Positions 6,001-28,773 of a stretch of DNA of 46,260 nucleotides are shown one piece after another. The stretch covers positions 1 to 46,260 of the IMG/VR virus record IMGVR_UViG_3300012532_000004; one strand, written 5' to 3'. The position numbers and the translations under genes are program-made. Numbering within the stretch: the stretch's first letter is position 1; every line of letters starts with the position of its first letter. The notes beneath the pieces were generated by a model, which had not been told where the DNA came from, made no database searches, and was given only the letters and a program-made list of their open reading frames with translations. Origin of the DNA: a virus.

Positions 6001-6007
6001 GTTCTGG

Positions 6008-9477: not shown

Positions 9478-9900
9478 CTACTCCGCGAGGGGGCCTGGCC
9501 TCTGACCTGCGGTTTCGAGGTAGCGGTCCGCCATCGCGCGCAGCCAGCGCGCCCGTCCCGCACGGCGACCGCCGACCGGGTGAGCGTCGAACGCGAACGA
9601 CTGCGCGGCCTGCTGGAGACCGAGTAGCGCCTGCGCCTCCCGGACGCCGCCGAAGAACGGCTCCGCGTCGTGCTCGGCTACCTGCGGCAGCAGGCCGCGA
9701 TCGGTCACGACAGCCCGGTAGAAGTCCCTCAGGAACAGCGGGCGGCTGCCGCGCTCGGGTGCATAGAACCACAGCGGCACGTCGGCGGCTCCGGCGAGAC
9801 GAGGCGGCTCCTCCCGGGTGAGGTAGGCGTACTCGGTGGGAAGCGGTTCCTGGGGGAACCGGATTCCTGTGGTGCTGTTGAGGATGAGGGTTGCGGTCAT
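9478..9900 (-). CDS. Hypothetical protein
   Basis: A 140-residue protein (begins MTATLILNSTTGIRFPQEP) starting with ATG at 9900 after a weak GAGAGG. It has aromatic-rich segments (EYAYLTREEPPR, DVPLWFYAPERG) and a helical Gln/Ala segment (AQALLGLQQAAQSFAF). No known motif. Separated from the operon below by the repeated promoter at 9434-9457, so it is transcribed from further upstream. Confidence 0.65.
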   Translation of the reverse strand: MTATLILNSTTGIRFPQEPLPTEYAYLTREEPPRLAGAADVPLWFYAPERGSRPLFLRDFYRAVVTDRGLLPQVAEHDAEPFFGGVREAQALLGLQQAAQSFAFDAHPVGGRRAGRARWLRAMADRYLETAGQRPGPLAE

Positions 9901-9904
9901 CGGT

Positions 9905-10099
9905 CTAGCCTCTCGTGTTGGCGTATTCCTCTATCAGATTGATCTGTTCTTCCAGGTAAGCATTGCTGTTTCTTGCCGCAAGAAGCGGGCGCCAATGCTG
10001 CAATCTCTGATTGATTGCTGCGCGCTTTTCTGGGTCTCTTTCTATATGAGAATCCCATTCCGGGTCCTCATCTGATACTGGGGTGGGGTTGCTGCTCAA
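9905..10099 (-). CDS. Small hypothetical protein
   Basis: A 64-residue acidic and helical protein (SDEDPEWDSHIERDPEKRAAINQ) with a TTG start at 10099, four bases after the preceding stop. GAGG sequences lie upstream. No membrane segment or motif. Position and codon use match its neighbours. Confidence 0.55.
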   Translation of the reverse strand: MSSNPTPVSDEDPEWDSHIERDPEKRAAINQRLQHWRPLLAARNSNAYLEEQINLIEEYANTRG

Positions 10100-14150: not shown

Positions 14151-15770
14151 TCAGTCCTGGTTCTGCTCGATGTAGCGCAGCACGGCGTCCTCGACGGACT
14201 CGCGCGTCAGGTGCGCGTGGTAGATAACCTCGTCCACCGACTTCGGTACGAGCACGTTCCAGAACGTCACGGGCCGCTTCTGGCCGATGCGGTGCAGCCG
14301 GTCGCGGGACTGCACCCAGTCGTCGCGCCGCTCGCTGAGCGAGGCGTAGACGGCGTGCGAGGCGGTCACCAGTTCGTTGACGGCGAGGCTCATCGTCCGC
14401 ATCTGGGCGATCATCACGATCCGGACCCCCTCGCTGCTGCCGAACCGCTGCCGCAGCGCGATCCGCTCCTTCGGCGGGGTATCTCCCGTGATCTGGACGA
14501 TGACCGTGGACTTCGGCTCGCTCTTGCGGATCGCCGCCGCGAGGTCGGCAATCTCCTGCCGGAAGTGCGCGAACACGACCACACGGTCCTCGCCAGCGAG
14601 GGTGTCGCAGACGATGCCGCGCACGGCCGTGACCTTGCTGTCCCCAACGGCCTGCATCACGCCCGTGTCGTCGGGCACGTAGCCGCTCGTGATCTGCCGC
14701 AGGCGCATCATCTGCGCGAGCCGGTTCGGCACGCTGGACAGTGCGCCGTTGGCGTGCGCAACGGCCAACTGGTCCTTCATCGACAGGTAGGCCGCAGCCT
14801 CGCGCGGTCCCAGATGAACGGGCACCATCACATCGGTGATTTCGGGCAGGTCGAGAGCGTCCTCCTTGCGGACAACGATGCTGTTCTGGGCCATCACGTC
14901 CTGCATCTCGCCCAGGTTCTGGTAGCCGACAACCTCCTGCCCCATGTGCCCGCCGAACACGCCGTAGCGCTCCTGGAACCGGCCGAACGGCATCTCCTTG
15001 ATCCCGCCGTACCTGCGGTCGGGCTCGTTGAACGCCAGCGGCTGGAGGAACCGCCACTGTCCCCACACATCCATAGGGCTGTGCGGCATCACCGTGCCCG
15101 TGAGGATCAGGCGCCGGGGCGCCAGGCGCGCCATCCGGGCTGCCGTCCGGCTCACGTTCGCGCTCGGGGACTTGATGCGATGGCTCTCGTCGATCACGAT
15201 CAGGTCCGGGCCGAACCGCTGTACCGACTGGTGAACCACGTCGGACATGTTCTTCGAGCGCGTCACCTCGCGGCGCTGGCTCAGGGAGTCCAGGCTCAGC
15301 ACTTCCAGGATGATCCCCGGGCCGGTCTGCATCGTGTCCCAGTGCAGGCGCTTGACGCGGCCCTGCGCGGGCTGGTGTGAGCCGTCCTGCGAGACGCCCG
15401 CCCACGCGACGGCGCGACGGATGCCCTCGCGAGGGTCGGCGCGGCGCTCGCTCCGCGCCACGAGCACCTGGCAGCGCTGCGCGACAGAGCCACCCAGGGC
15501 CTCTGCCCAGACGCCCACACCCTCGGCGGCATACTTCGCCGCCTGCCCCACCCACGAGTCCAGGGCGACGAGCGGCGCGAGCACGAGCACGCGGATGGGC
15601 CGGTCGGCCTTGAGCGCCAGCGCGGACGCGTAGTCGATCGTCACGGCGGTCTTGCCCGTGCCGGGGTCCATCAGCAGAGCGCAGACGCCGCGCGTCTCGA
15701 TGATGCGCCGGAGCGCCCGCTTCTGGTGGTCGTAGCGCGGCTCTCCGCGCGGTCTGTAGTCCAGGGTCAT
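14151..15770 (-). CDS. SNF2-family DEAD/DESH helicase
   Basis: A 539-residue superfamily 2 ATPase. Walker A is MDPGTGKTA (about 34-42), motif II is VIDESH, LILTGT is motif III, and QSRDRLHRIGQ near the C-terminus is the SNF2 motif VI; VVVFAHFRQEIADL marks the second RecA lobe. Such proteins act in phage replication or recombination by moving along duplex DNA. The start overlaps the stop of a nine-residue leader peptide (ATGA) whose own start lies in the palindromic module at 15784-15842, suggesting coupled translation. Confidence 0.92.
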   Translation of the reverse strand: MTLDYRPRGEPRYDHQKRALRRIIETRGVCALLMDPGTGKTAVTIDYASALALKADRPIRVLVLAPLVALDSWVGQAAKYAAEGVGVWAEALGGSVAQRCQVLVARSERRADPREGIRRAVAWAGVSQDGSHQPAQGRVKRLHWDTMQTGPGIILEVLSLDSLSQRREVTRSKNMSDVVHQSVQRFGPDLIVIDESHRIKSPSANVSRTAARMARLAPRRLILTGTVMPHSPMDVWGQWRFLQPLAFNEPDRRYGGIKEMPFGRFQERYGVFGGHMGQEVVGYQNLGEMQDVMAQNSIVVRKEDALDLPEITDVMVPVHLGPREAAAYLSMKDQLAVAHANGALSSVPNRLAQMMRLRQITSGYVPDDTGVMQAVGDSKVTAVRGIVCDTLAGEDRVVVFAHFRQEIADLAAAIRKSEPKSTVIVQITGDTPPKERIALRQRFGSSEGVRIVMIAQMRTMSLAVNELVTASHAVYASLSERRDDWVQSRDRLHRIGQKRPVTFWNVLVPKSVDEVIYHAHLTRESVEDAVLRYIEQNQD

Positions 15771-15796
15771 GTCTCATCCTTCTGTTCTTCGTTCAT
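15767..15796 (-). CDS. Leader peptide MNEEQKDET coupled to the helicase gene
   Basis: On the minus strand the palindromic module supplies GGGGGAGG, a six-base gap and ATG. The peptide MNEEQKDET ends in TGA, which overlaps the helicase ATG as ATGA. The same arrangement occurs before the Cas4-like gene at 18473. I infer translational coupling; no expression evidence is available. Confidence 0.5.
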   Translation of the reverse strand: MNEEQKDET

Positions 15797-15842
15797 CACG
15801 CACCTCCCCCTTATAGGGGAGGTGCGGTGATGAGAGAAGAAC
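15784..15842. repeat. Palindromic leader module, copy A
   Basis: Arms GTTCTTCGTTCATCACG... (from 15784) and ...GAGAGAAGAAC (to 15842) pair over about 25 bp around the loop CTTATA, with one bulge and two mismatches. Each arm carries GGGGAGG followed by ATG on one strand, so the stem hides both a ribosome site and a start codon. Compared with copy B, a T-A pair is replaced by G-C and one whole pair is lost, i.e. paired changes that preserve the structure. Confidence 0.75.
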
Positions 15843-15846
15843 GATT

Positions 15847-15921
15847 GTGCCTCTGACCAGGGGAAACGCTACACAGCGTAACATGTGTCCGAAATGCGAT
15901 GTAGCGAAAACGTCGTTCTAG
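15847..15921 (+). pseudogene. Decayed relative of the Cys-rich mini-protein at 25064
   Basis: Read on the plus strand from GTG at 15847, the frame gives MPLTRGNATQRNMCPKCDVA and ends at 15921. It aligns with PLTCGYANARNMHPKC of the mini-protein at 25064-25174. The M-R-E-E-R-L start supplied by the module (15830) is in another frame and stops at 15856, consistent with a one-base deletion. The end overlaps the antisense stop codon of the primase gene. Likely a frameshifted remnant, or a 24-residue peptide using the GTG. Confidence 0.45.
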
Positions 15922-18128
15922 TCGTTGATGTCGTTTGGTGAAGACTGGCCGTCTTCTCCATCTTCCGGCGCGTAGTCCGGTACGTAGTCCGGGTTCAGCG
16001 CGTGAAGGAGCGGAGTGCCCCGGCCCGTCCCCCGGCTGGTGACGATTTCCCCGACGGTGACGAGACGCTGCCGGGCCTGGTCGAGCGAGCGGTTGCTGAG
16101 CGGCCTGCCCTGTTCCGTCTCGCCCGCGAGGTCGCAGAGTTCCTGCGACCTCAGGGGCTCGCGGGCCTGGAGCAGCGCGAGCCGCACGGCGTCCTCCGCC
16201 CGGTTCATGTCTGCGAGAGCCTGGTCCGCGCGCTGGGCCTGCTTCTCCGTCGAGTCGATTTCGCGGTAGGTGTTCGTCTCGGTCTCCTTGTCGAGCAGCA
16301 GTTCGCCCTTCACCAGATCTTCGGTCCGGCCGAACGTCCGGATGTGCCGAGGCGAGTTCTGGTCCTTCGGGTCGCTCAGTGCCAGGTGCATGATGTGGTC
16401 GGCGTCCGCCTCCTTCGCGGAGGAGCCCGCTGCCCGCATAGCCTCAGCGTGGCCCGCGTGGTCAGTGACCACGAGGTCGGTCGCGCCGACGACGAGCCGC
16501 GCCCACTGGTTGACCTGCCGGATCCAAGCGCGGACCTGTGTCGCGTCGTTCTGCGAGTCCCCGGTGAAGGCGTGCGAGAACGTGTCGATGAAGACCGACT
16601 TCACGTTCAGCGCCTTCAACTGCTCACCGAGCGACCGCAACTGCTTGGTGTTGTGGAACGGGTTCGCCCGGCCGCGCAGGTCTACCTGCACCACGCGGTC
16701 GAGGGGCACGCCACGCCGGTTGAACATCGCTGCAGCCTTGGCCGGGGTGACCTCGAAGTTCAGCATCGCCACACGCTCGTCCGGCGCCAGCGGGACGACG
16801 GCGCACTCCCCGAGGAACTTCTCCCCCGTCAGCAGGGCATAGGCCATGTTGACGAGCACTGTGGTCTTGCCCGTCTTCCGCTGCGCCGACAGCCAGAGGG
16901 TGCTGTCCCAGGGGAGGACCCGCTCGATACGGGGCGTCTGCTCCGGCTCGGCTTCCAGCACCTCGGCAACGAGCCGAACCAGCGGCTCGCTGTCCTCCGG
17001 CTCCTGCTTCGCGCGGTAGCGCTGAGTCGCCTCCTCACGTACCTCCATGCGGAGGACCTCGTGCTCGACCATGCGCTCGAAAGCGACCCGCTGAATGTCC
17101 TCGTCCTCATCGTCCTCCTCGGCCACCAGCAGCCTGTCAGGGACTTCCGGGGTAACCGGGCCGACGAGGGTCTGCGAGTCGCTGTACGAGCCGTACGGGC
17201 TCTCCGGCTCATCGAGGGACCAAGGCCGGACGTGCCCCTCGGCCTCCTCGACGGCGAACACGAAGTCCTTGCAGCGCTGCACCACGTCTTCGCTCAGGTG
17301 CTGCGCGAGCGTGGGCCAGCCCTGGGTGGGCTTGCCCCGGGCGATCTTCTGGAGCGTGGACTCGACGGACTGGTCGATCCGCGTCTGCATCCCCTCCTCG
17401 TCGTGCGTCGCCTGGACGATCACGGCGATGATGCCGGGAGCCAGTTCCCGCCAGACCGGCGAGACACGGCGGCTGGCGCCGTACCCCTCCGCGAGCAGCG
17501 CGCCCGCGAGCGCGAGGTAGGCGTCGTGCCGACCGCCACGCACGGGCCACTCGATGGCGAGCAGCGTCGACAGGGCGAGACACCCGACCCGGCTGCGCAG
17601 TTCTGCGCCACCGATGAGCGCCGGGCCTTCGGCACCGCCCCACGCCTCGTCGGCCCAGACATACCGCTCGCCGTCCGGGTGGATCGACGGAGGGACGACG
17701 GTCTGCCCTCCGGTGGACCGCAGTTCGACCAGTACGCGGTCGTCCCGCTGGCGGTCCGGGTGCATGTAGCGCGTGGTGCCCTCAGGGAGCCCATCCTCGA
17801 CCCGATACCAGTAGTGGCTACCCGGACGGCTGACACGTCCGCCTACGGCTGCTGTGGTGCCCCGGAGGAAGACCTGCGCGGCGGTGAGGCCCTTGGCGTG
17901 GTCGATGTCCACGTCCACCAGCCCGCCCGACGGCGCGCCGAGTGCGATGCCCAGGTTCGACGGCTCCTGCGCGAACAGCGTGCGCACGTCGGCTGCGGAG
18001 CCGTAGGTCAGCGTGGTCCAGTTCGGGTCGAACGGGCGCTTCGTGCCGGGCCGGATCGGCACCGGAACATACCCACGTTCGTATGCCTCTACAGCGTGCG
18101 CGGTGGTATCATCTGAGGAGAGGTTCAC
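15918..18128 (-). CDS. Primase-polymerase / helicase fusion
   Basis: A 736-residue replication protein. The N-terminus is a bifunctional AEP primase-polymerase: GYVPVPIRPGTKRPF, GGLVDVDIDHAKG (metal-binding D72, D74, D76), RPGSHYWYR and the ELRSTGGQTVVPPSIH segment are its usual motifs. The C-terminus is a RecA-like ATPase with Walker A SAQRKTGKTTV (about residue 415) and Walker B VKSVFIDTFSH, as in RepA/DnaB-like phage helicases, followed by a winged-helix-like tail. GTG start at 18128 overlaps the stop of a 32-residue ORF (GTGA). Supplies primers and unwinds DNA for the polymerase. Confidence 0.9.
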   Translation of the reverse strand: MNLSSDDTTAHAVEAYERGYVPVPIRPGTKRPFDPNWTTLTYGSAADVRTLFAQEPSNLGIALGAPSGGLVDVDIDHAKGLTAAQVFLRGTTAAVGGRVSRPGSHYWYRVEDGLPEGTTRYMHPDRQRDDRVLVELRSTGGQTVVPPSIHPDGERYVWADEAWGGAEGPALIGGAELRSRVGCLALSTLLAIEWPVRGGRHDAYLALAGALLAEGYGASRRVSPVWRELAPGIIAVIVQATHDEEGMQTRIDQSVESTLQKIARGKPTQGWPTLAQHLSEDVVQRCKDFVFAVEEAEGHVRPWSLDEPESPYGSYSDSQTLVGPVTPEVPDRLLVAEEDDEDEDIQRVAFERMVEHEVLRMEVREEATQRYRAKQEPEDSEPLVRLVAEVLEAEPEQTPRIERVLPWDSTLWLSAQRKTGKTTVLVNMAYALLTGEKFLGECAVVPLAPDERVAMLNFEVTPAKAAAMFNRRGVPLDRVVQVDLRGRANPFHNTKQLRSLGEQLKALNVKSVFIDTFSHAFTGDSQNDATQVRAWIRQVNQWARLVVGATDLVVTDHAGHAEAMRAAGSSAKEADADHIMHLALSDPKDQNSPRHIRTFGRTEDLVKGELLLDKETETNTYREIDSTEKQAQRADQALADMNRAEDAVRLALLQAREPLRSQELCDLAGETEQGRPLSNRSLDQARQRLVTVGEIVTSRGTGRGTPLLHALNPDYVPDYAPEDGEDGQSSPNDIND

Positions 18129-18223
18129 TCCGCCGTCCTCTCGTCGCGGCGGTTCGGGGTGGGGTTGCTGTTACGTGAAGGGCCGCTTCTGGGGGAGCGG
18201 CCCTTCGGCATGTCAGAGGTCAT
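18125..18223 (-). CDS. 32-residue ORF coupled to the primase gene
   Basis: Translation from ATG at 18223 (AAAGGA upstream) gives MTSDMPKGRSPRSGPSRNSN and a charged tail, ending in TGA that overlaps the GTG of the primase. It contains the 10-bp hairpin at 18178-18205. It may be a small basic protein or a leader that controls primase translation; the sequence alone does not decide. Confidence 0.45.
   Translation of the reverse strand: MTSDMPKGRSPRSGPSRNSNPTPNRRDERTAE
18178..18205. terminator. Hairpin within the primase leader ORF
   Basis: AAGGGCCGCT and its perfect complement form a 10-bp stem with an eight-base loop (18188-18195). It lies inside the small ORF upstream of primase, where it could act as an attenuator. 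Confidence 0.5.
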
Positions 18224-18394
18224 GTGGTTCCTTTCACCGAGGACGTTCGGCACGTCCGAGCACATGATACATTAGTACACGCATTGACCAGCACATCGAC
18301 CAGCAGCGGGCAGCGACGAGCGGTTCCAGAACCCTACATCGCGCTCTGGTCAGCGAGTTTGTACCTCACTCTGTACCTCTAATCCCCTAGTCGT
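18224..18394. promoter_or_regulatory. Divergent intergenic region between primase and Cas4-like operons
   Basis: About 170 bases without a gene. On the minus strand TAATGT at 18274-18269 matches the -10 of the repeated promoters and could serve the primase leader. On the plus strand TTGACC at 18284 is a weak -35 candidate with no good -10. No convincing ORF or RNA gene seen; the palindromic module copy C follows. Confidence 0.35.
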
Positions 18395-18453
18395 GTTCTT
18401 CGTTCATCACTCACCCCTCCCCTGTAAGGGGAGGGTGATGATGAAAGAAGAAC
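18395..18453. repeat. Palindromic leader module, copy C
   Basis: Arms from GTTCTTC (18395) to GAAGAAC (18453) pair around loop TGTAA, with small bulges. On the plus strand the right arm gives GGGGAGG then ATG at 18441. On the minus strand the left arm gives GGGGAGG then ATG at 18407, opening only MNEEHD. Same design as copies A and B. Confidence 0.75.
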
Positions 18454-18476
18454 GCGGACCTGAAGGAGTCACATGA
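18441..18476 (+). CDS. Leader peptide MKEERGPEGVT coupled to the Cas4-like gene
   Basis: The 11-residue ORF starts in the stem of module copy C and ends in TGA overlapping the ATG of the nuclease gene (ATGA at 18473). A second in-frame ATG at 18438 could be used. An internal GAAGGAG serves the nuclease start. The arrangement mirrors the helicase leader at 15767-15796. Confidence 0.5.
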   Translation: MKEERGPEGVT

Positions 18477-19648
18477 CCGACCTGACCGTGGTGTCCCCCA
18501 GCAGCCTCGGCACCTACCGCACCTGCCCGAAGAAGTTCGAGTACTCCAGTCTGCGCCGTCTGCGCCCGAAGGACATGGGCGTGCTCATCCTCCGCGAGTA
18601 CGGCTCGTGGTGGCATGCGCTGCGCGCTGCCGACGCGATCAGCCGCAGCCGCACTCAGGACGGCCCAGCGCCGAAGCACATCCCCACCACCCTCTCGACG
18701 GGCGACATGGGACCGGAGATTCCCGTCACCGATGACCTGTACGCCCCGGACGTGCTGCTCGCGGCCCAGCGGTTCTGGGAGGCGATGCCGTTCGAGACGC
18801 GGGAGCGGTGGGAGGAGAAGACCGGTGCGCCGCTGCCCGAGCACCTTGCCGAGATGGACAACAGGTGGACAGCAGCCTGGGCGGACGAGCAGCCCAACGA
18901 GCAGTTGATCGCCGTCGAGTTGGCGTTCGAGGTCCCCATCGGGGACACGGGCGTCGCGCTGCGCGGACGTGTCGATGAGGTCTACTACGACGTGAAGCGC
19001 AACCTTGTCGTCGTCCGGGACCACAAGACGAACGGGAACATCGACGCGAGCGAGTCGCTGGACGACCTGCTCGACAGCCAGTTGCACCTGTACGCCTGGG
19101 GCGTCTCCGTCGCCCTGGGGGTCAACGTGGGCGCCGTCGGCTACGACCGGGCGCGCAGCAAGCCCGCGTCGCAGCCTGCCCTCACCAAGTCCGGCACGCT
19201 CTCGAAGTCGACGACCGACTACGACGTGCACGCCTACCTCGCGTTCACCGACGAGCCGGTGCCGTTCCCCGGGCCCAAGAAGGACGGCTCCGGCGCGCGC
19301 GAGTACCTGCGCGACGAGAAGGTCGTTAAGCGCCTGGAGACGCCGACCGAGCGCGACAAGTGGAACCGGCGCACGCTCGACCCGACCAACCCGCGCATGA
19401 TCAGGGGTCACCTGCTCGAAGCCGTCGCTACGGGCGAGGGGCAGGCGGAGGCGCGGCGCCGGTTCCTTGCGGACGACCCGCTCAAGCCGATCCCGCGCAA
19501 CCTGTCCCGGCAGGGCTGCAAGTCGTGCGACTTCGTGCACCTCTGCCTCGACGAGATGCGCACCAACGAGCGGCTCAACCCGGAGCCGTACGGGCTTTCC
19601 TCGAAGGACACGACACAGCCCTCGGCGCCCGTAGACGTCGAGGGCTGA
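18473..19648 (+). CDS. Cas4/RecB-like PD-(D/E)XK nuclease
   Basis: A 391-residue protein. SPSSLGTYRTCPKKFEY at the N-terminus has the first Cys and the helix typical of RecB/Cas4 nucleases. VVRDHKTNG is the D-x-K part of the catalytic site, and QLHLYAWG is the downstream Q-x-x-x-Y motif. GCKSCDFVHLC near the C-terminus gives three further Cys that with C18 can bind an Fe-S cluster. Predicted exonuclease for recombination, next to Sak4 and SSB genes. GAAGGAG precedes the ATG; the module leader peptide stop overlaps it. Confidence 0.88.
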   Translation: MTDLTVVSPSSLGTYRTCPKKFEYSSLRRLRPKDMGVLILREYGSWWHALRAADAISRSRTQDGPAPKHIPTTLSTGDMGPEIPVTDDLYAPDVLLAAQRFWEAMPFETRERWEEKTGAPLPEHLAEMDNRWTAAWADEQPNEQLIAVELAFEVPIGDTGVALRGRVDEVYYDVKRNLVVVRDHKTNGNIDASESLDDLLDSQLHLYAWGVSVALGVNVGAVGYDRARSKPASQPALTKSGTLSKSTTDYDVHAYLAFTDEPVPFPGPKKDGSGAREYLRDEKVVKRLETPTERDKWNRRTLDPTNPRMIRGHLLEAVATGEGQAEARRRFLADDPLKPIPRNLSRQGCKSCDFVHLCLDEMRTNERLNPEPYGLSSKDTTQPSAPVDVEG

Positions 19649-19659
19649 GCAGGGCGCCG

Positions 19660-19890
19660 TCAGACCGGCGTCGGCGTCGGCTCCGGGAGCGGAGGCGGCA
19701 GGGGGACGGTGGCGCGGACGGCGGCGTCCTTGGACTCCAGCAACTTGCGCAGGGCGACGGACTTCTCCGCGCCGTCGGGCAGCGTCGCGGCGAGGTCGTA
19801 CGCGAGCGCGTGGAACTTCGCGCTGGTGTCGCGCAGCGGCCCTTCCGGCAGGTGCTCGAAGCCGAAGTAGAACAGGATCGGTGCGGTCAT
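19660..19890 (-). CDS. Acb2/Tad1-type hairpin-domain protein (putative anti-CBASS sponge)
   Basis: A 76-residue protein on the opposite strand to its neighbours, with GGAGG before the ATG at 19890. The core TSAKFHALAYDLAATLPDGAEKSVALRKLLESKDAAVRA fits the two-helix hairpin of Acb2-like proteins (FHxLAxxLxxxLPDGxExxxAL...LxxSxxAAxRA). Acb2 forms hexamers that bind cyclic oligonucleotides and so blunts CBASS (and sometimes Thoeris) defence. The Pro-rich tail (PLPPPLPEPTPTPV) is an add-on. The family call rests on pattern only. Confidence 0.65.
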   Translation of the reverse strand: MTAPILFYFGFEHLPEGPLRDTSAKFHALAYDLAATLPDGAEKSVALRKLLESKDAAVRATVPLPPPLPEPTPTPV

Positions 19891-19968
19891 TCTGATGCCT
19901 CCAATTGCGGCGGTTTACTAATGGCAGCCCTACCCTATGCCGAGTAGCCGACTGCCGCTCCGGTAGGG

Positions 19969-19995
19969 TAAGGTTACGTATGTAGGGTGCAAGTC
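19969..19995 (+). promoter_or_regulatory. Variant repeated promoter before the Sak4-like gene
   Basis: TAAGGT (19969-19974), TACGT, ATGTAGGGTGC. The -10 and TACGT-ATG part match the repeated motif, but the ATG is directly followed by TAG and the CAGCACAA part is absent. TACCCTA (19931-19937) and TAGGGTA (19964-19970) form an inverted repeat across the promoter. Confidence 0.55.
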
Positions 19996-20026
19996 ATGAG
20001 ACAGCACCCCTGACAACTGGAGACAG

Positions 20027-20872
20027 ATGAGCAACAGCATCGCTGGCCTGACCCTGTACGGCGCGCAGGACATCGGAGACGACTACGGTCGCTTCCTGCT
20101 CCACGGCTCGCAGGGCAGCGGCAAGACGTACCTCGCCAGCACGATCGCAGCCCTCGGCAAGACGCTGATGGTGGACCTGCGCGGCGAGCGCGGCCCGCGT
20201 TCCTGGCTCGGGACGCCCTGGGCGAAGAACATCCAGGTCATCCGGCCGAAGTCGATCCAGCAGATGGACGACATCTTCTACGCGCTGGACCGTGGCGAGG
20301 GCGACTTCAAGGCGGTCATCCTCGACAGCCTGACCGGTGTCCAGAAGATGACGATGCGGTTCCTGCTCGGCCACAGCGAGACGGCAGTGCGCGAGATTGC
20401 GCAGGGCGTCGCAGCGGCTGACCAGCGCACGTGGGGACAGGCGCTCGACATCATGAGCGACATCCCGACGTTCTGGTACAGCCTCGCGGACGCCGAGCGG
20501 CCGAGCCCGATGCACGTCATCCTGACGGCGCAGACGAAGATCACCGAGGACGAGGTGAACAACCAGACGACGCGTACCGTGGACGTTCAGCGCGGCGCGC
20601 AGTCGATCACGCTGGCCTCCCCCGACTACGTGATGTTCTGCGAGACGGAGAAGGACTTCGACAACACGGACGACGAGGGAAACCCGATCGAGCGGCACGT
20701 CGCCCGGTTCGGCAACGACGTCGAGTACCGCATCAAGGCGCGCGTCCCCGCGAACCTGCATGGCCGGATCCCTCCGGTGCTCGGGCGCAAGGCGCCGCTG
20801 TCCCTCGTGAGCCTCGGGCGCACGCTGGGCATCGGCGGCATCCCGGCTGCGGCTCCAGTCGCAACCAAGTAG
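20027..20872 (+). CDS. Sak4-like RecA-type ATPase
   Basis: A 281-residue protein with Walker A HGSQGSGKTYLA (about 26-37), Walker B AVILDSLTG, and HVILTAQTKI near the sensor position, all typical of Sak4 single-strand annealing ATPases (AAA_24 group). It works with an SSB and an exonuclease in phage recombination, and both are adjacent. TGGAGACAG precedes the ATG. The upstream promoter at 19969 probably starts this run. Confidence 0.85.
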   Translation: MSNSIAGLTLYGAQDIGDDYGRFLLHGSQGSGKTYLASTIAALGKTLMVDLRGERGPRSWLGTPWAKNIQVIRPKSIQQMDDIFYALDRGEGDFKAVILDSLTGVQKMTMRFLLGHSETAVREIAQGVAAADQRTWGQALDIMSDIPTFWYSLADAERPSPMHVILTAQTKITEDEVNNQTTRTVDVQRGAQSITLASPDYVMFCETEKDFDNTDDEGNPIERHVARFGNDVEYRIKARVPANLHGRIPPVLGRKAPLSLVSLGRTLGIGGIPAAAPVATK

Positions 20873-20913
20873 CAGCACCTCAACAGCAGCAACTCACAGA
20901 AGCGAGAACTCAC

Positions 20914-21540
20914 ATGGCACCTTCGTACACGCTCGACCTGACGGGCTACAAGGAGCGTCTGAGCGCTACCGTCCCCGAGGGTCGGTACCTGGCGCAGATC
21001 GACGACGTGGAACTCACGAAGACGACCAGCACGAACAAGGACATGTTCAACGTCTGGGTCCGGATCATCGACGGGCCGCACGCGGGCGCCGTCCTCATCG
21101 ACCGGCTCACGATCACGGACAAGGCGCTGTTCCGCATCGTCGCGTTCCTCAACGGGCTCGGCCTGCCGACGCCGAAGAAGCGCCTGTCGCTCAACACGCA
21201 GCAGTGGATGGGCCGGAAGGTCTGGATCGACACGAAGCACGGCGAGCCCTACCGGGGTCGTCCGGGCCGGTCGGAGATCGACGGCTACGTCCGTTACGTG
21301 CCGGAGACGGCCGAGCAGGACGCGACCGTCGAGGTGGACGAGTCGTACTCCGAGATGGACCGTTCGAACGAGCCCGTCAAGGCGTTCGAGACCGACGGCC
21401 CGGTGCCGCTGGAGGAGGCGGTGGCCGCGTCGCAGGGGGACGAGGCCACGCCCGCTGAGGACGATTCCCCGGCTACGCCGAGCCCGTTCAAGGCGCAGGA
21501 CGAGCCCGAGATGCTGAGTCTGTCGGACATCAGCCTGTAG
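20914..21540 (+). CDS. Single-stranded DNA-binding-like protein
   Basis: A 208-residue protein. The N-terminal part (EGRYLAQIDDVELTKTTSTNKDMFNVWVRII ... VLIDRLTIT) fits phage SSB-like OB-fold proteins (DUF669-like). The C-terminal third is acidic and disordered and ends EPEMLSLSDISL, as in SSBs that recruit partners by an acidic tail. It follows Sak4 closely. The Shine-Dalgarno is weak, so translation may depend on the upstream gene. Confidence 0.75.
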   Translation: MAPSYTLDLTGYKERLSATVPEGRYLAQIDDVELTKTTSTNKDMFNVWVRIIDGPHAGAVLIDRLTITDKALFRIVAFLNGLGLPTPKKRLSLNTQQWMGRKVWIDTKHGEPYRGRPGRSEIDGYVRYVPETAEQDATVEVDESYSEMDRSNEPVKAFETDGPVPLEEAVAASQGDEATPAEDDSPATPSPFKAQDEPEMLSLSDISL

Positions 21541-21717
21541 GGTTGCAGACGGCCGGGACGGGTAGAGCGGGTGGTTGTGCTGACACGTAACCTCCTTCGG
21601 CGCTCCCCGTCCCGGTTCTAACCTGGTGGAGTCGGGTATCCCGACCACCAGACCCGGCAGACTTCACCGACTGCCGTAGCGAGGCCCCATCCCCCGCCGG
21701 ATGGGGCCTCGTGCTTT
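21541..21717. other. Intergenic region with nested hairpins and an antisense promoter relic
   Basis: Between the SSB gene and the tRNA. CCGGGACGGG (21553) pairs with CCCGTCCCGG (21606), and CTGGTGG/CCACCAG with TCGGG/CCCGA makes a second hairpin at 21623-21651. On the minus strand GTTACGTGTCAGCACAAC (about 21574-21591) is a copy of the repeated motif without its -10; with AAGGAGG it could start an 18-residue ORF. Confidence 0.45.
21681..21710 (+). terminator. Terminator hairpin before tRNA-Cys
   Basis: GAGGCCCCAT (21681-21690) and its perfect complement ATGGGGCCTC (21701-21710) around a 10-base loop. It ends eight bases before the tRNA and likely closes the SSB transcript or defines the tRNA 5' side. 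Confidence 0.6.
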
Positions 21718-21788
21718 GGCTCCTTGCCCGATCGGCTAGGGAGCGGCCTGCAAAGCCGCGCAGCCGGGTTCAACTCCCGGAGGAGCCT
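21718..21788 (+). tRNA. tRNA-Cys (GCA)
   Basis: A complete cloverleaf: acceptor GGCTCCT/AGGAGCC; D arm with CCCG...; anticodon stem GCGGC/GCCGC with loop CTGCAAA, giving anticodon GCA (Cys); T arm CCGGG-TTCAACT-CCCGG. No encoded CCA: the sequence after the acceptor is TCGTGG. It is followed immediately by the GTG of the nuclease gene at 21790. A Cys tRNA fits a phage with many Cys-rich small proteins. Confidence 0.93.
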
Positions 21789-21789
21789 C

Positions 21790-22104
21790 GTGGCACAACC
21801 AGAGACATTGCTCGTGGGACAGATCCGCCGCGCAGTGCAGCGCGCATACCCGGACGCTCTGGTCGTGAAACTTGCGGGCGGTCCCTACCAGTCGGCGGGC
21901 CTGCCGGACCTCCTCGTCATCCTCGATGGCAAGGCGTATGGCTTCGAGGTGAAGAAGCAGCGACAGGGCGAGAGCGAGCAGCACGCGCGAGGGCGCGCGA
22001 CGCTGCGGCAGCAGGCCGTCATTGAACAGATCCGGCGCGCGGGCGGAGTCGCCGCCGTCGTGCTCAGCGCTGACGAGGTGCTGGCGCTCCTGCCAAATCC
22101 GTAA
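21790..22104 (+). CDS. VRR-NUC domain nuclease
   Basis: A 104-residue protein starting with GTG two bases after the tRNA. YPDALVVKLAGGPYQSAGLPDLLVIL has the catalytic Asp, and GFEVKKQR has the E-x-K of the PD-(D/E)XK site. TLRQQAVIEQIRRAGGVAAVV is the following helix and strand typical of VRR-NUC proteins, which act as junction or flap nucleases in phage replication. There is no obvious Shine-Dalgarno apart from GGAGG within the tRNA 3' end. Confidence 0.85.
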   Translation: MAQPETLLVGQIRRAVQRAYPDALVVKLAGGPYQSAGLPDLLVILDGKAYGFEVKKQRQGESEQHARGRATLRQQAVIEQIRRAGGVAAVVLSADEVLALLPNP

Positions 22105-22173
22105 CATGTTTGTTACCTGATTGCTTAGCGCCCTCCCTTGCTGCCGTGCTAATGTTACGTATGTCAGCACAAC
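22105..22173 (+). promoter_or_regulatory. Operator plus repeated promoter/5'-end motif, copy 3
   Basis: GTAACATGTTTGTTAC (about 22104-22119) with a further GTTACC-N6-CTTAGC spacing is followed by TAATGT (22150-22155), TACGT and ATGTCAGCACAAC (22161-22173). The element ATG is 36 bases before the gene start at 22197. Confidence 0.65.
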
Positions 22174-22196
22174 AGCAGTTCAACCGGGAGGTCATC

Positions 22197-22421
22197 ATGG
22201 ACATCACCACAGCGAAGGTCGAACTTCTCCGCAAGCGCCACATCGGCAAGATGATCCGGCTCGACTCCGGCGAGTACCGCATCTCGGGCCTCGACCGACG
22301 GGTGTACGACCACACGAAGTTGGACGTGTACCTGGAGCGGCTGGACAGTAAGGGCCGCGTCGAGAGCCGCACCTGGACTGTCCTCACCGTCCCGGCCTTC
22401 TACGCCGCGATCGTCCGCTGA
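22197..22421 (+). CDS. Small beta-rich protein
   Basis: A 74-residue protein (begins MDITTAKVELLRKRHIGKMI) with GGGAGG before the ATG at 22197. Strands MIRLDSGEYRISGLDRRVYDH and LDVYLERLDSKG suggest a small barrel like the protein at 12542. The promoter-motif ATG at 22161 is in frame and would add 12 residues; I prefer 22197. Unknown function. Confidence 0.62.
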   Translation: MDITTAKVELLRKRHIGKMIRLDSGEYRISGLDRRVYDHTKLDVYLERLDSKGRVESRTWTVLTVPAFYAAIVR

Positions 22422-22455
22422 CCTCCCCCAACTCGTCGAACCGAAGGAGCACACC

Positions 22456-22977
22456 ATGTCTCGCAGCACCCGCAACCGCTACGCCCGTACCGACGCGATC
22501 CTCGCCACCTACATGACCCTCAAGAAGTCCGGCGTTCCTTCCTGGGTCACCAGCCATGAGGCCTACCGTATGACTGAAGGTCGCGTCGGGACCGAAGGGG
22601 ACAACAGCGGCGCCAACGGCTTCACGCTGATGAACCTCGTGCGGCGCGCCGACGGCAACGTCGTCGCCCTGGCTGACCTGGAGACCGTCCCTCCGCTCGC
22701 GGAGCAGGGCAAGATCCTGCGCTCGCAGTTCCTGGAGGACGACGGCACGGAGGCCGAGTCGCTGGCCGAGGTGCAGCCGCCGAAGACGACCGGCCCGCAG
22801 AAGGGCGATGTCGTCTCGTACGCCCTGCACCGCTCCCGCAAGGGCGTCGCCCCGCGCTGGGAGGTGCGGCACGTCGACCCGGACGGCACTCTCACGCTCG
22901 ACCTTCTCGGCAGCGCAAAGCGCAGCACGGCGCGGTTCGGCGTCGACCCGGCGAAGGTCGTCGTCCGCTCGCACTGA
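22456..22977 (+). CDS. Hypothetical protein
   Basis: A 173-residue protein (begins MSRSTRNRYARTDAILATYM), good GAAGGAG before the ATG. Basic N-terminal helix, then a central acidic region and a C-terminal beta segment (DVVSYALHRSRKGVAPRWEVRHVDPDGTLTLDLLG). No motif recognised. Followed by a terminator hairpin, so it ends its transcript. Confidence 0.68.
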   Translation: MSRSTRNRYARTDAILATYMTLKKSGVPSWVTSHEAYRMTEGRVGTEGDNSGANGFTLMNLVRRADGNVVALADLETVPPLAEQGKILRSQFLEDDGTEAESLAEVQPPKTTGPQKGDVVSYALHRSRKGVAPRWEVRHVDPDGTLTLDLLGSAKRSTARFGVDPAKVVVRSH

Positions 22978-22981
22978 TCCC

Positions 22982-23013
22982 GAGGCCCGGAGTCCCAACG
23001 GATTCCGGGCCTC
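22982..23013 (+). terminator. Terminator hairpin
   Basis: GAGGCCCGGA (22982-22991) and TCCGGGCCTC (23004-23013) form a perfect 10-bp stem right after the stop at 22977. It separates two promoter cassettes. Confidence 0.7.
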
Positions 23014-23024
23014 TGCCAGTTTCG

Positions 23025-23094
23025 TAACATGTTCGTTACCGGAATCGGTAGTCAGCCCGAGTTACTGGGTGTAGTGTTACGTATGTCAGCACAG
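23025..23094 (+). promoter_or_regulatory. Operator plus repeated promoter/5'-end motif, copy 4
   Basis: GTAACATGTTCGTTAC (23024-23039), then GTTACC-N6-GGTAGT, then TAGTGT (23072-23077), TACGT and ATGTCAGCACAG (23083-23094). The GGTAG half-site starts 25 bases before TAGTGT, exactly as in the copies at 26966, 29640 and 37586. The element ATG is 37 bases before the gene start and out of frame. Confidence 0.7.
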
Positions 23095-23119
23095 AGCAAC
23101 ACCAACCGAGGAGAGCATC

Positions 23120-23359
23120 ATGAACAAGGCACACGGCACGGTCACCGAGTGGGAGACCTACGAGGGCGTCACCTACGGCTACAACGAGGCCGGGGACCGC
23201 ATCATCGAAATCTCGGCCCGAGTCCGTCCGAACGCCTGGAACGGGCACACCGACTCCAACGTGCGTGGCTGGGCTGTCTGGGACGAGAACCGCAAGATGA
23301 CCGCTGGTAAGGCCGACGGCCTCCGGGCCTCGAAGAAGGCAGCCCTCGCTGCTCTCTGA
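23120..23359 (+). CDS. Small hypothetical protein
   Basis: A 79-residue protein (begins MNKAHGTVTEWETYEGVTYG) with GAGGAGAG before the ATG. Beta-rich N-terminus (EGVTYGYNEAGDRIIEISARV) and an Ala/Lys-rich C-terminal helix. No family recognised. Sits alone in a promoter-terminator cassette. Confidence 0.65.
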   Translation: MNKAHGTVTEWETYEGVTYGYNEAGDRIIEISARVRPNAWNGHTDSNVRGWAVWDENRKMTAGKADGLRASKKAALAAL

Positions 23360-23365
23360 GTAGTC

Positions 23366-23411
23366 GCCCCGGCTCCGCGTAGGCGGCGCAGGTTCACGGC
23401 CTAGCCGGGGC
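23366..23411 (+). terminator. Hairpin with long loop
   Basis: GCCCCGGCT (23366-23374) pairs with AGCCGGGGC (23403-23411) over a 28-base loop, between two cassettes. Confidence 0.5.
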
Positions 23412-23416
23412 ACGCA

Positions 23417-23431
23417 GTGTCAGCGCAACAC
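23417..23431 (+). promoter_or_regulatory. Partial repeated motif without -10
   Basis: GTGTCAGCGCAACAC resembles the ATGTCAGCACAAC part of the repeated motif and lies 35 bases before the DUF932 gene start, the usual spacing, but no TAGTGT or TACGT precedes it. Probably a diverged copy. Confidence 0.4.
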
Positions 23432-23451
23432 CAACCCGAAGGGACGCCATC

Positions 23452-24573
23452 ATGGCTCACGAAATCACCTCCACCGACAACCTCTTCTCGGTCCGCCAGA
23501 TGCCGTGGCACGGGCTCGGCACCATCCTCAGCGAGTATCCGACCCGCGAGGAGGCGCAGGCCATCGCCCACAACTGGGAGCCGGTCACCGCTCCCGTCTA
23601 CCGTGCGGTCCCCGGCTTCACCGAGGGCGTCCTGGACGAGTGCGGGCACTTCCTGCCCTCGGACCAGTGCAGCACCTGCCCCACAACCTGGGCTGAGGCT
23701 CCGCAGCCGACGACCCGCTACGAGGTCATCGAGGGCACGCAGGAGGTCGTCTGGCAGGACAACCCGGGCGTCAACAGCGGGAACAACGGGGCGCACATCG
23801 GCGTCACGAACGACACCCTCGGCATCGTCAGCAACAGCGAGATGTACGACATCGCGGAGGCGGTGCAGGGCCTCGGCGGCGACGTGCGCTACGAGACGGG
23901 CGGTTCGCTGCGCGGCGGTCGCCAGGTGTGGCTGCTGCTCCGCCTGGACGAGCCGCTGGTGCTCGCCGGGGACCCGAACGGCGCGACGCTCCAGTACTTC
24001 GCCCTCCAGAACAACCACGACGGTGGCGGCTCGTTCCGGGGCCAGGCGATCAACACCCGCATCGTCTGCGCCAACACCAGCCGCATGGCGGACATGAGCG
24101 CCAAGGCGTCCGGCACGGAGATTGTCTTCCGCCACACGAAGAACGTGAAGGACCGCATCGAGGAGGCCAAGCAGGCGCTCGCCATGTGGCGCGTGTCGGT
24201 CGAGGAGTGGAAGGTCTTCAACGAGTACCTGCTCACGATGAAGGTCACCGACGCCCAGCGCGAGGAGTTCATCGAGCGGTTCGTCCCGGCGCCGGAGGCT
24301 GCGATCGTCAGCAAGCGCGTGCTGACGAACATCGAGAACGCCCGGGGTGACCTGCGCACGATCTTCGCCTCGGAGACCTCGGAGGGCGTCAAGAACACGG
24401 CCTACGGGCTGGTGCAGGGCGCTGTCGAGTACAGCCAGTGGTTCCGCTCGACGCGCGGCCAGAACGACCAGGACCGCGCCGAGAACCTGTTCCGTCGGTC
24501 CTTCCTCGACCGCGACCGCCTCGTGCAGTCGGCGGCGAAGATGGCCCAGGACATCGCGCTGAGCGTCGCGTAA
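23452..24573 (+). CDS. DUF932 (phage/plasmid-like) protein
   Basis: A 373-residue protein with the start MAHEITSTDNLFSVRQMPWHGLGTIL, the MPWHGLG signature of the DUF932/TIGR03299 family, and CGHFLPSDQCSTC, an extra Cys pair. Conserved LRLDEPLVLAGD, LQNNHDGGGSFRGQAINTRIVCANT and FRHTKNVKDRIEEA follow the family pattern. Members are common in phages, plasmids and mobile elements near replication genes; the function is not known. Good GAAGGGA before the ATG. Confidence 0.85.
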   Translation: MAHEITSTDNLFSVRQMPWHGLGTILSEYPTREEAQAIAHNWEPVTAPVYRAVPGFTEGVLDECGHFLPSDQCSTCPTTWAEAPQPTTRYEVIEGTQEVVWQDNPGVNSGNNGAHIGVTNDTLGIVSNSEMYDIAEAVQGLGGDVRYETGGSLRGGRQVWLLLRLDEPLVLAGDPNGATLQYFALQNNHDGGGSFRGQAINTRIVCANTSRMADMSAKASGTEIVFRHTKNVKDRIEEAKQALAMWRVSVEEWKVFNEYLLTMKVTDAQREEFIERFVPAPEAAIVSKRVLTNIENARGDLRTIFASETSEGVKNTAYGLVQGAVEYSQWFRSTRGQNDQDRAENLFRRSFLDRDRLVQSAAKMAQDIALSVA

Positions 24574-24653
24574 CCGAGGCAGGAGCAGCCGCCGTGGCGT
24601 CCGGGGTAACCCGGGCGCCTCGGCGTTCTACGAGGCTCTGGAAGGGGCACACA

Positions 24654-25007
24654 GTGAGGACGTTGAAGGAACGCAAGGATCTGCTCGCCCGGCTGCCGTG
24701 GGTAACCCGGCTGCCGTCGTCGATGCCGGAGCACCGTTGCGACGGGATCAAGTGGGGGAAGGCCGCCATGCGCGACATCCACTCCCGGGGCGGGAAGCCC
24801 GCTCGCGGTATCCAGGAGCGGGCGAAGTGCAAGCGGCGCGGCTGGTTCCGGTTCACGGCGCTCAAGCCGCACGGCAACTACCCGCCGATGCCGGGTAAGT
24901 CGGGTTTCTACTGCTACGACCACCTCGCCATGCAGATCCAGGGCCACCCGAAGGAGCACGAGCGGTTCCGGCGCTGGCTGGAGCAGAACGAGCCGGGCGG
25001 GCTCTGA
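24654..25007 (+). CDS. Hypothetical protein
   Basis: A 117-residue basic protein starting with GTG at 24654 (GGAAGGGG upstream). Two Cys (HRCDGIKWG, RAKCKRRGW) and an aromatic segment SGFYCYDHLAMQIQ. A repeated CCGGGGTAACCCGGG-type palindrome lies just upstream. Ends just before module copy B. Unknown function. Confidence 0.6.
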   Translation: MRTLKERKDLLARLPWVTRLPSSMPEHRCDGIKWGKAAMRDIHSRGGKPARGIQERAKCKRRGWFRFTALKPHGNYPPMPGKSGFYCYDHLAMQIQGHPKEHERFRRWLEQNEPGGL

Positions 25008-25016
25008 CCTCGTTCT

Positions 25017-25076
25017 GTTCTTCCTTCATCACTCACCCTCCCCCTTATAGGGGAGGGTGAGTGATGAACGAAGAAC
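25017..25076. repeat. Palindromic leader module, copy B
   Basis: The most perfect copy: 27 bp per arm with one mismatch, around loop CTTATA. Right arm on the plus strand reads GGGGAGG-GTGAGTG-ATGAACGAAGAAC, i.e. a full ribosome site and start. The minus strand also has GGGGGAGG then ATG at the matching place. Confidence 0.8.
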
Positions 25077-25174
25077 GTTTAGACCCTCTGACCTGCGGTT
25101 ATGCAAATGCACGTAACATGCATCCCAAATGTCCGTGCGGTGAAAACGTCGTGCTAACGGTTGATGCCTGTTGA
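25064..25174 (+). CDS. Cys-rich mini-protein starting in the palindromic module
   Basis: A 36-residue ORF: MNEERLDPLTCGYANARNMH then PKCPCGENVVLTVDAC. Start codon and GGGGAGG ribosome site are in the right arm of module copy B. Four Cys (C11, C23, C25, C36) could bind zinc. The segment PLTxGxAxxRNMxPKC is also encoded, with a frameshift, at 15847-15921, so both the module and the coding part were duplicated. Too short to assign a function. Confidence 0.55.
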   Translation: MNEERLDPLTCGYANARNMHPKCPCGENVVLTVDAC

Positions 25175-25238
25175 TGAACCGTCCGCCTGACAATGCGGAC
25201 AGGTTACGCTGGCCCTACCTAGACCGAAGGAGTCCCCC
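25175..25238 (+). promoter_or_regulatory. Putative promoter of the lysis genes
   Basis: GTCCGC/GCGGAC (25181-25200) forms a small hairpin; TACGCT at 25205-25210 fits the -10 form and lies 29 bases before the TTG start, with GAAGGAG in between. Confidence 0.35.
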
Positions 25239-26156
25239 TTGACCACCCTGATCCTCCCCCGTTCTTCCTGGTCGCCCCGCTACCAGGACGGCGACCTGAA
25301 CCTCAGTGGTACCGCCGAAGCCGTCGTCGCGCACCACACCGTGACTCACGCCGACGGCGACACTGAGGAAGCCGAGCGCGCGCACATGCGGTTCCTCGAA
25401 GGCATCGGCCAGGAGCGGTTCGGCACCGGCATCTCCTACAACGTGGTCATCTTCCCGTCCGGGCGGGCCTACCAGGGCGTCTCGTTCAACCGGCGCGGTA
25501 CGCACACGGGCGGGCACAACAGCACCGTCCGGTCGATCTGCTTCGTCGGCAACTTCGAGACGGACTTCCCGAGCGACGCCGCGCTGGTCACGGGCGCCCG
25601 GATCTACGAGGAGGGGAAGAACCGCTGGTGGCTGTTCAACGCGCCCGTCAACGGCCACCGCGACTACAAGTCCACGGCGTGCCCGGGCCGCAACGTCTAC
25701 AGCCACCTCGACGCGATCGAGTCGGGCACCCTGCTCGACGACGGCCCGGTCTTCGTCGACAACCCGATCCCGCCTATCACCCCGCCCAAGCCCGCGACGC
25801 CGCCGAGCACGTTCGTCGACGGCTTTTGGGGCAGGGCGACCACGGCCCGGCTCCAGCGCGTGCTCGGTACCCCGGTCGACGGCATCGTCTCGTCGCAGAC
25901 GGCGAGGTGGCGCGATAGCAACCCGGGTCTGACGACGGGCTGGCGCTGGACCGCGCGTGGTCGCGGCTCGCAGGTGATCTTCGCCCTCCAGGACGCGCTC
26001 GAACTGCCGCACGGGCAGCGGGACGGCCTCGTCGGGCCGTACACGATCAGCCGCCTCCAGGCGCACCTGGGCACGAGCACGCACGACGGCGTTCTGTCGC
26101 GCAACTCCCGTACGATCATGGCGCTCCAGCGTCATCTCGAAGAGGGCTCCGTGTAG
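25239..26156 (+). CDS. Endolysin: N-acetylmuramoyl-L-alanine amidase
   Basis: A 305-residue protein starting with TTG (GAAGGAG at good spacing). Residues about 10-160 are an amidase_2/PGRP domain: VVAHHTVTH (zinc His about 32-33), GISYNVVIFPSGRAYQG, and NGHRDYKSTACPG (zinc H140, C148). After a Pro-rich linker (about 170-190) come two repeats of a peptidoglycan-binding type (FVDGFWGRATTARLQRVLG and DGLVGPYTISRLQAHLG), with WGxxTxxxLQ-like motifs. It cleaves the amide between muramic acid and the stem peptide for host lysis. The last 41 bases overlap the antisense HNH gene. Confidence 0.92.
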   Translation: MTTLILPRSSWSPRYQDGDLNLSGTAEAVVAHHTVTHADGDTEEAERAHMRFLEGIGQERFGTGISYNVVIFPSGRAYQGVSFNRRGTHTGGHNSTVRSICFVGNFETDFPSDAALVTGARIYEEGKNRWWLFNAPVNGHRDYKSTACPGRNVYSHLDAIESGTLLDDGPVFVDNPIPPITPPKPATPPSTFVDGFWGRATTARLQRVLGTPVDGIVSSQTARWRDSNPGLTTGWRWTARGRGSQVIFALQDALELPHGQRDGLVGPYTISRLQAHLGTSTHDGVLSRNSRTIMALQRHLEEGSV

Positions 26157-28271: not shown

Positions 28272-28513
28272 GGAAGGGCCAGATCCAGGCGCGCAGCACG
28301 CCGGAGGACATCGCCTACCGGCGCAAGCGCGTTCGCGCGATGGCGGCTACCGGCATGACCGACGCGGAGATGGGCGCGGCGCTGGGCGTCTCCTGGCGCA
28401 CGATCCTCCGCGACCGTCAGGCCGACGGAATCCCGCCCGGCTACGACCCGAAGACGCGGTTCAAGCCGCGCCGCGAGTGGGGTGCCGAGTTCGTCGGGGG
28501 TGTCGCGTGGTGA
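28268..28513 (+). CDS. Small helix-turn-helix protein
   Basis: An 81-residue protein, ATG overlapping the WhiB stop. RKRVRAMAATGMTDAEMGAALGVSWRTILRDRQADGI is a clear HTH, with the recognition helix at VSWRTILRDRQ, similar to sigma-region-4 or recombinase-type HTHs. Basic N- and C-terminal ends fit DNA binding. Probably a regulator in the WhiB operon. Confidence 0.78.
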   Translation: MRKGQIQARSTPEDIAYRRKRVRAMAATGMTDAEMGAALGVSWRTILRDRQADGIPPGYDPKTRFKPRREWGAEFVGGVAW

Positions 28514-28773
28514 CGCTCAGCGAGGGCGTGATCGCCAAGGCGCGGAAGTACCTGGCCGAAGGCCGCGTGATGCAGGACGCCCTCGACGACTCGGTGTGGT
28601 GGATCGAGGGCAGTCGCCAGGGTGCGCCGTACCGCGTCCAGATCGTCCTGGACGGCGACGGCACGGTCCGGAGCCGTATGTGCACCTGCACCCATGGGAA
28701 GAACGCTCTGGGCGCCGCTCAGTGCTCTCACGTCGTCGCAGCGGCCACGAAGATGCGGGAGGGCGCCGCGTGA
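28510..28773 (+). CDS. SWIM zinc-finger protein
   Basis: An 87-residue protein; I take the GTG at 28510, which overlaps the previous stop, though 28507 is also GTG. The C-terminal CTCTHGKNALGAAQCSHVVAAATKM has the C-x-C-x(n)-C-x-H pattern of SWIM fingers, used for DNA or protein binding. The N-terminal part WWIEGSRQGAPYRVQIVLDGDG is beta-rich, as in SWIM domains. Function in the phage not known. Confidence 0.78.
   Translation: MTLSEGVIAKARKYLAEGRVMQDALDDSVWWIEGSRQGAPYRVQIVLDGDGTVRSRMCTCTHGKNALGAAQCSHVVAAATKMREGAA

Follow-up and report, generated by a model that had tools for sequence, protein, structure and literature searches.

Palindromes at three gene junctions of the window

The viral record IMGVR_UViG_3300012532_000004 of IMG/VR, a complete record of 46,260 bases that was analyzed at its full length and is referred to below as the window, carries three near-perfect palindromes of 59–60 bp, located at 15784–15842, 18395–18453 and 25017–25076. 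They had been picked out in a preliminary description of this DNA, and all three were confirmed: the pattern GTTCTTC-N20..46-GAAGAAC has three matches in the window, while none was expected from 100 shuffled sequences. The stem energies calculated for RNA are -38 to -48 kcal/mol (z = -7 to -11), and those for DNA are -23 to -28 (z = -8 to -11).

The first palindrome (copy A, minus strand, hereafter site 2) lies in the gap between the gene for a PrimPol-AAA helicase (15918–18128, minus strand; Pfam PF09250 and PF13481), the 3' end of which is ahead of it, and the gene for a SNF2 family helicase (14151–15770, minus strand; Pfam PF00176, E 3.1e-14; phrog_62, E 2e-88). Copy B (plus strand, site 1) separates the divergent transcription units of PrimPol and of a RecB/Cas4-like PD-(D/E)XK nuclease (18473–19648, plus strand; Pfam PF12705, E 1.9e-18; phrog_1218, exonuclease), and ends 19 nt before the nuclease ATG. 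Copy C (plus strand, site 3) is found 9 nt past the stop codon of an open reading frame (ORF; 24438–25007) and upstream of the gene for an N-acetylmuramoyl-L-alanine amidase, the lysin (25239–26156, plus strand; Pfam PF01510, E 3.6e-16; phrog_1493, endolysin).

Extent of the family

Scans of viral collections retrieved the palindrome in two large records, G001 (57.6 kb) and G002 (59.1 kb), and in a 4.2 kb fragment, G003, that is almost identical to part of G001. A comparison of ORFs shows the three to be colinear with the window, and most of the shared proteins are 50–90% identical. A fourth relative, G004 (8.4 kb), was found using a 19-bp repeat (see below) as bait, and holds the 15th copy. 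The family thus comprises 15 copies in five records (three in the window, five each in G001 and G002, and one each in G003 and G004), 12 of them outside the window, and these occupy five homologous gene junctions. Copy A corresponds to G001 9848–9905, where the outer arm has been rewritten but is still paired, and to G002 28475–28533; copy B corresponds to G001 7318–7375 and G002 25960–26018 (20 and 21 nt ahead of the nuclease ATG, respectively), and copy C to G001 562–621 and G002 18539–18598, which have a different inner stem that is free of Shine-Dalgarno (SD) sequences.

Beyond these records the palindrome was not encountered. When 14 copies were made into a covariance model, it recovered just those 14 in the window, G001, G002 and G003, and nothing further up to an E value of 1. 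No copy is present in G005, G006 and G007, which are more distantly related, or in Microbacterium phages such as Fireman (a type reached via alignment of structural proteins, with about 62–65% in a conserved virion protein), nor in the stretches examined of Microbacterium phage Hendrix and Dulem virus 38, relatives of the nuclease (32–37%). A search with the nuclease as a single protein found no relative, while an alignment search with Sak4 returned G001 and G002 only. The covariance models of Rfam 15 gave no match in the window at the gathering score, INPHARED contained no near-identical phage DNA, and a looser viral scan returned at least 118 stretches, the strongest hairpins among the matches listed all being from contigs already known. 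Scanning of a genome collection gave one match, a 42-bp palindrome (TTCTTCACTCATCAATAGC..) on three contigs of one gammaproteobacterial metagenome-assembled genome (L012 482–523, L013 3354–3395 and L014 250–291); it sits within larger inverted flanks and is apparently an unrelated repeat.

A distant search with copy C produced just short, unrelated matches, and these were to its flank: CCCTCTGACCTGCGGTTATGC, which adjoins the palindrome (window 25080–25108), has 23–29 nt matches to Nocardia phage NBR1 and Tsukamurella phages TIN3 and TIN4, in unannotated stretches close to the genome ends. A different palindrome with 23-bp arms (CTGAATTAGGGTGGCTCG) occurs at a structural-gene junction of the distant relatives G006 and G007 (L158 2012–2061 and L161 2022–2071). 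The start of G001 (L022 1–60) is a fold-back, GGGCGAGTACCGCGCC..GGCGCGGTACTCGCCC, within the lysin gene, the remainder of which is at the other end of the contig, and is probably an end effect of the assembly.

Anatomy and paired changes of the arms

All copies are near-perfect inverted repeats of 57–60 bp. On either side the outer arm (GTTCTTC-NN-TCATCA) hardly varies; the arms enclose a GC-rich, variable inner stem, usually CCCTCCCC/GGGGAGGG around a central TTATA; at site 3 of G001 and G002 the inner stem is instead of a GCGCGCC type. At site 2 of G001 the outer arm has itself been turned into TTTAT/ATAAA with pairing kept. That paired changes preserve the stem had been proposed from the window copies, and the wider comparison bears this out. 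Changes on both sides were seen in 7 of the 19 consensus pairs, with 94% of cells paired, and none of 500 shuffles did as well; when the left and right halves of different copies were joined, the chimeras folded worse than the true pairs, with none of 20,000 permutations as good. The palindrome is a real hairpin, the two arms of which change together. Its sense strand is no more stable than the antisense strand, so neither is favored energetically, and the central loops occur in both orientations.

Five homologous junctions

Every copy is located at a gene junction, and at four of the five sites a stop codon precedes the element from one side or both. At site 1, between divergent units, the distance to the nuclease ATG is held at 19–21 nt in all three large records. 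Site 2 is co-directional, running from PrimPol into the next gene, which is SNF2 in the window and in G002. Site 3 is upstream of the lysin, and in G001 and G002 an ordinary terminator sits between the upstream gene and the palindrome; the lysin start is preceded there by GTTACGAT/GTTACGCT, which to judge by its letters may be the -10 element of a near-leaderless promoter. Site 5 is in the head operon, and is occupied in G001, G002 and G003 but empty in the window (42420–42437, plus strand), where the sequence reads TAG-ACCGTTG-GGCTACCC when aligned to the occupied G001 site.

Site 4 gives the strongest hint to function. The segment is missing from the window record, but in G001, G002 and G004 the palindrome fills the gap between two convergent stop codons, with 2–4 nt to each. 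In these three records one or two genes have been inserted in opposite orientation to the structural genes, and the palindrome closes that unit; in G001 and G002 the opposed genes have the 19-bp promoter-like repeat ahead of them. At the equivalent position in G007 and Fireman neither an opposed gene nor a palindrome was found, and the adaptor gene leads directly to the next structural gene. G004 lacks one gene that is present in G001 and G002, and its palindrome directly follows the stop codon of the remaining gene, indicating that the element keeps to the end of the last gene, whichever that is. The other convergent junction in the same genomes has an ordinary long hairpin at the same position (window 5958–6001), a perfect 17-bp stem with CTCTTCTCT on its 3' side that fills the convergent gap and is an ordinary bidirectional terminator. 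Taken together with the unit ends at site 4, this suggests that the palindrome takes the slot of a unit-end hairpin.

The window also has eight exact copies of TGTTACGTATGTCAGCACA, at 9436 and 14061 (minus strand) and at 22153, 23075, 26969, 29643, 37589 and 44695 (plus strand). Each is shortly upstream of an SD sequence and start codon, and is preceded by the -10-like TAATGT or TAGTGT; G001 and G002 have about 9–11 copies each, with 0–1 mismatches. This resembles a promoter or leader repeat specific to the phage. A promoter role was also considered for the palindrome arms, and was rejected because their distance to -10-like sequences is not constant.

Copying between sites

The proposal that the modules are mobile or duplicated gained support from the flanking sequences and from the occupied and empty states of site 5. 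Copies A and C of the window share about 95 bp of diverged flank (15843–15936 and 25077–25175, both plus strand), with 128 of 180 positions identical over element and flank, against 50 of 110 in the stretch that follows. The copy C flank holds an ORF of 36 codons; in copy A this frame is interrupted. In G002, sites 1 and 4 have ACGACTAGGTGA in common, extending 12 bp beyond the palindrome. These observations support the duplication or copying of palindromes within genomes, and no clear target-site duplication was seen on comparing the empty and occupied forms of site 5.

Changes were seen within the element as well. Over 4.2 kb, 19 differences separate G001 from G003, three of them within the final four bases. 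Two of the 19 lie inside the palindrome, 5 bp apart, and convert CTTATAG to its exact reverse complement. The same loop flip distinguishes site 4 of G001 from that of G002. The flips suggest strand switching within the palindrome, or possibly an assembly effect instead.

Comparison with known repeats

The nearest parallel is with the repetitive extragenic palindromic (REP) elements. Between convergent genes these lie less than 20 bp away from either 3' end, and between genes of the same direction they are close to the 3' end of the upstream gene; the superfamilies GTAG and CGTC are 20–40 bp long and carry the unpaired tag, GTAG or CGTC, at one of their ends (PMC3733652). Like REPs, the phage palindromes are dispersed and intergenic (each large record has 3–5, always at a gene junction), and for the most part they are close to flanking 3' ends at convergent and unidirectional sites, with some copies bordered by the stop codon of the gene. 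Site 4 fits this placement, sites 2, 3 and 5 largely do so, and site 1 is divergent. The differences are that the phage elements are longer (57–60 bp), few where REPs are many, have a freely changing inner stem, and are found in phages; their flanks have no constant GTAG or CGTC tag but varied ends (CGATC, ACGACTAG or AGA). In addition, the REP-associated tyrosine transposase (RAYT; Y1_Tnp domain) is missing from the window, G001 and G002, although an enzyme encoded by the host is possible. Placement is largely common to both, while length, tag, copy number and transposase differ, and the family is best described as a variant of the dispersed palindromes that is REP-like yet not a member.

Repeated inverted repeats are also known from actinophages. 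The extended start-associated sequences (ESAS) of Cluster K mycobacteriophages contain 17 bp inverted repeats, the arms of which were considered by the authors not to support RNA pairing, and with one exception they always precede a start-associated sequence (PMC3203893). They resemble the palindromes described here in being intergenic, conserved at homologous genes and in some cases near start codons. However, the arms of the phage palindromes co-vary, are nearly perfect and are often at 3' ends, and the placement upstream of an SD sequence is not shared: site 4 is between 3' ends, and most others are at variable distance from starts. Further dyad-symmetric repeats, of 18 bp in Microbacterium Cluster EG and 17 bp in Cluster O mycobacteriophages, are of unknown function and occur in 8–10 or over 30 copies (PMC7302621, PMC4351075); these are shorter and more numerous, and are without a long variable inner stem.

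Interpretation

With a confidence that we would put at about even, we favor the view that these elements may form a low-copy, clade-specific family of dispersed junction palindromes, analogous to the bacterial REP elements, that acts at the ends of transcription units. The palindromes would have spread by copying from junction to junction, whether replicative or recombinational, and the hairpin would have been kept for an action on unit ends in both directions. Such an action could be that of an RNA 3'-end barrier, or of a processing stem limiting read-through or exonuclease, and the hairpin would then be neither a U-tract terminator nor a translation switch. REP-type palindromes have been described mainly from bacterial chromosomes, and here a small family is found in one phage clade; its presence at homologous junctions, an unoccupied site, flanks that were copied along and loops in either orientation make it a tractable system for studying the spread of such repeats and their action at the ends of genes.

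Several observations weigh against this view. Site 1, between divergent genes, and site 5, within the head operon, are places where a barrier is not obviously wanted, and both fit a role at unit ends poorly; site 3 of G001 and G002 is already served by the adjoining ordinary terminator. The 3' side of the palindrome is purine-rich, the opposite of the AGAGCCCC..GGGGCTCT terminators of these genomes, which makes intrinsic termination unlikely. The sense strand is no stabler than the antisense strand, which does not speak for action as RNA. The REP-type transposase Y1_Tnp (PF01797) was found in none of the window, G001 and G002, and the outer arms are more strongly conserved in sequence than a hairpin alone would need.

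This last point leads to the main rival, which is a tentative possibility: a site at the DNA level, in which the inverted outer 15-bp arms at a nearly fixed distance, or an extruded cruciform, would be bound by a phage or host protein such as a regulator or a replication or recombination factor, with template switching during replication keeping the inner stem complementary. Nearly invariant outer arms around a variable inner stem, a length held at 57–60 bp, the lack of strand bias in stability and the flipped loops (between G001 and G003, and between site-4 copies) all speak for such a site, as does an ORF of the window that resembles a Holliday resolvase (21724–22104). However, no lone half-sites were found in the window, where the sole other match with two mismatches (at 6778) is near chance level, and at site 2 of G001 the outer arms have been rewritten on both sides with pairing kept, which a sequence-specific site would not tolerate.

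Alternatively, the palindromes may be selfish or neutral, either mobile in the manner of miniature inverted-repeat transposable elements (MITEs) or linkers of recombination, without any function for the phage and located at junctions merely because insertion and module recombination are tolerated there. We regard this as rather unlikely. The presence or absence of the element at site 5, the flanks copied between sites, and the gain and loss of genes at site 4, where the breakpoint coincides exactly with the edge of the palindrome, are in its favor, but none of the three large records lacks the element at site 1 or 2, and the outer arms have hardly changed (5 of 56 Glu codons, one copy excluded) although the proteins have diverged by 10–45%. 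Inverted repeats and an empty site are MITE-like features, but a target-site duplication could not be demonstrated, and no Y1_Tnp was found in the window, G001 or G002, in a search that did not systematically cover further families of transposases.

It is improbable that the palindromes are bidirectional intrinsic terminators, even though site 4 separates convergent genes and the copies at sites 2, 3 and 5 follow stop codons. The preliminary description had already considered a terminator role less likely since no T tract follows the hairpins, and we concur: neither strand has a U tract after the GC stem. The terminators of these genomes, such as the one at window 5958–6001, are likewise long hairpins that can fill a convergent gap, but have a U-rich 3' side (GGGGCTCTTCTCTG). 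A terminator scan did not return the palindromes, the sole nearby match (24995–25015) being just upstream of copy C, and ordinary terminators adjoin the element at site 3.

Ribosome-site-like letters in the arms

The palindromes had initially been read as an RNA switch, hiding the ribosome site and start codon of a short leader on both strands and coupling translation of the leader to the downstream gene. The letters behind this reading are present, in that all six window arms read ATG-(AAC/AAA/AGA/AAG)-GAA-GAA, or M-x-E-E, with a GGGGAGG-like core ahead. The leader MNEEQKDET* of copy A (minus strand) also exists as described, with its TGA overlapping the SNF2 ATG. Two others exist, MKEERGPEGVT*, the TGA of which overlaps the nuclease ATG, and a 36-residue Cys-containing ORF (no match by tblastn), but the letters B and C had been exchanged: by coordinates the former belongs to the second copy (18395) and the latter to the third (25017).

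A search of the relatives, which had been suggested as a check, found the pairing conserved; the SD sequence and the M-x-E-E motif are lost in some copies, and the leaders keep no ordered frame. The comparison covered 28 arms, partly by reading the sequences, and for the Glu codons one aberrant copy was left out. An SD-like core and ATG are well spaced in about 20 of the 28 arms; the core is missing in the other eight or so, namely the nuclease-facing arm of G001 and G002, both site 2 arms of G001 and all site 3 arms of G001 and G002. The two GAA codons are changed in 5 of 56 cases, none synonymously (nonsynonymous:synonymous 5:0), and the second codon is AAC, AAA, AAG, AGA or ATG. Exact TGA/ATG overlaps occur twice in the window and once at site 3 of G002, but the leader frames are not ordered relative to the next gene. 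The nuclease leader overlaps the ATG in the window, is an in-frame fusion in G001, and runs past the start out of frame in G002; at site 2 it overlaps the gene in the window, has lost M-x-E-E in G001, and stops short of the gene in G002; and at site 3 it stops well ahead in the window, is fused in frame in G001, and overlaps in G002. At site 4 each arm is directed into the 3' end of a converging gene, and coupling to replication genes in particular is not borne out, as other copies neighbor lysin and head genes. Both the nuclease gene and the SNF2 gene possess an SD of their own, just ahead of the ATG and downstream of the hairpin.

The loss of SD sequences, the changes in Glu codons, the disordered frames and the position of site 4 indicate that the SD and ATG letters are, in most copies, probably by-products of the purine-rich 3' arm, although a role in single copies is possible. 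A switch of the kind proposed is accordingly very doubtful. The same low credence applies to a two-way translational valve, in which SD and ATG hidden on both strands in many copies would be released by a cut or by a transcript that begins within the hairpin, one mobile DNA module thus acting wherever it lands; decay of single copies would then have to account for the SD and frame missing at several homologous sites. Where one arm of a palindrome is rich in purines, both strands can come to resemble ribosome sites, which is a trap when raw sequence is read.

The attC sites of integrons, which end in RYYYAAC..GTTRRRY, were dropped as candidates, the ends here being GTTCTTC..GAAGAAC.

Other features of the window

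A single tRNA-Cys (GCA) gene is present at 21718–21789. Two glycosyltransferases (6494–7177 and 7782–8843), a ParB-like ORF (33471–34232) and a Tet/JBP-like ORF (34165–35148) were also noted. The Tet/JBP oxygenase match is weak (28.6 bits, below the cut-off of 34.9), and the PHROG label of this ORF is queuine tRNA-ribosyltransferase. Together, these ORFs possibly represent a DNA-modification set.

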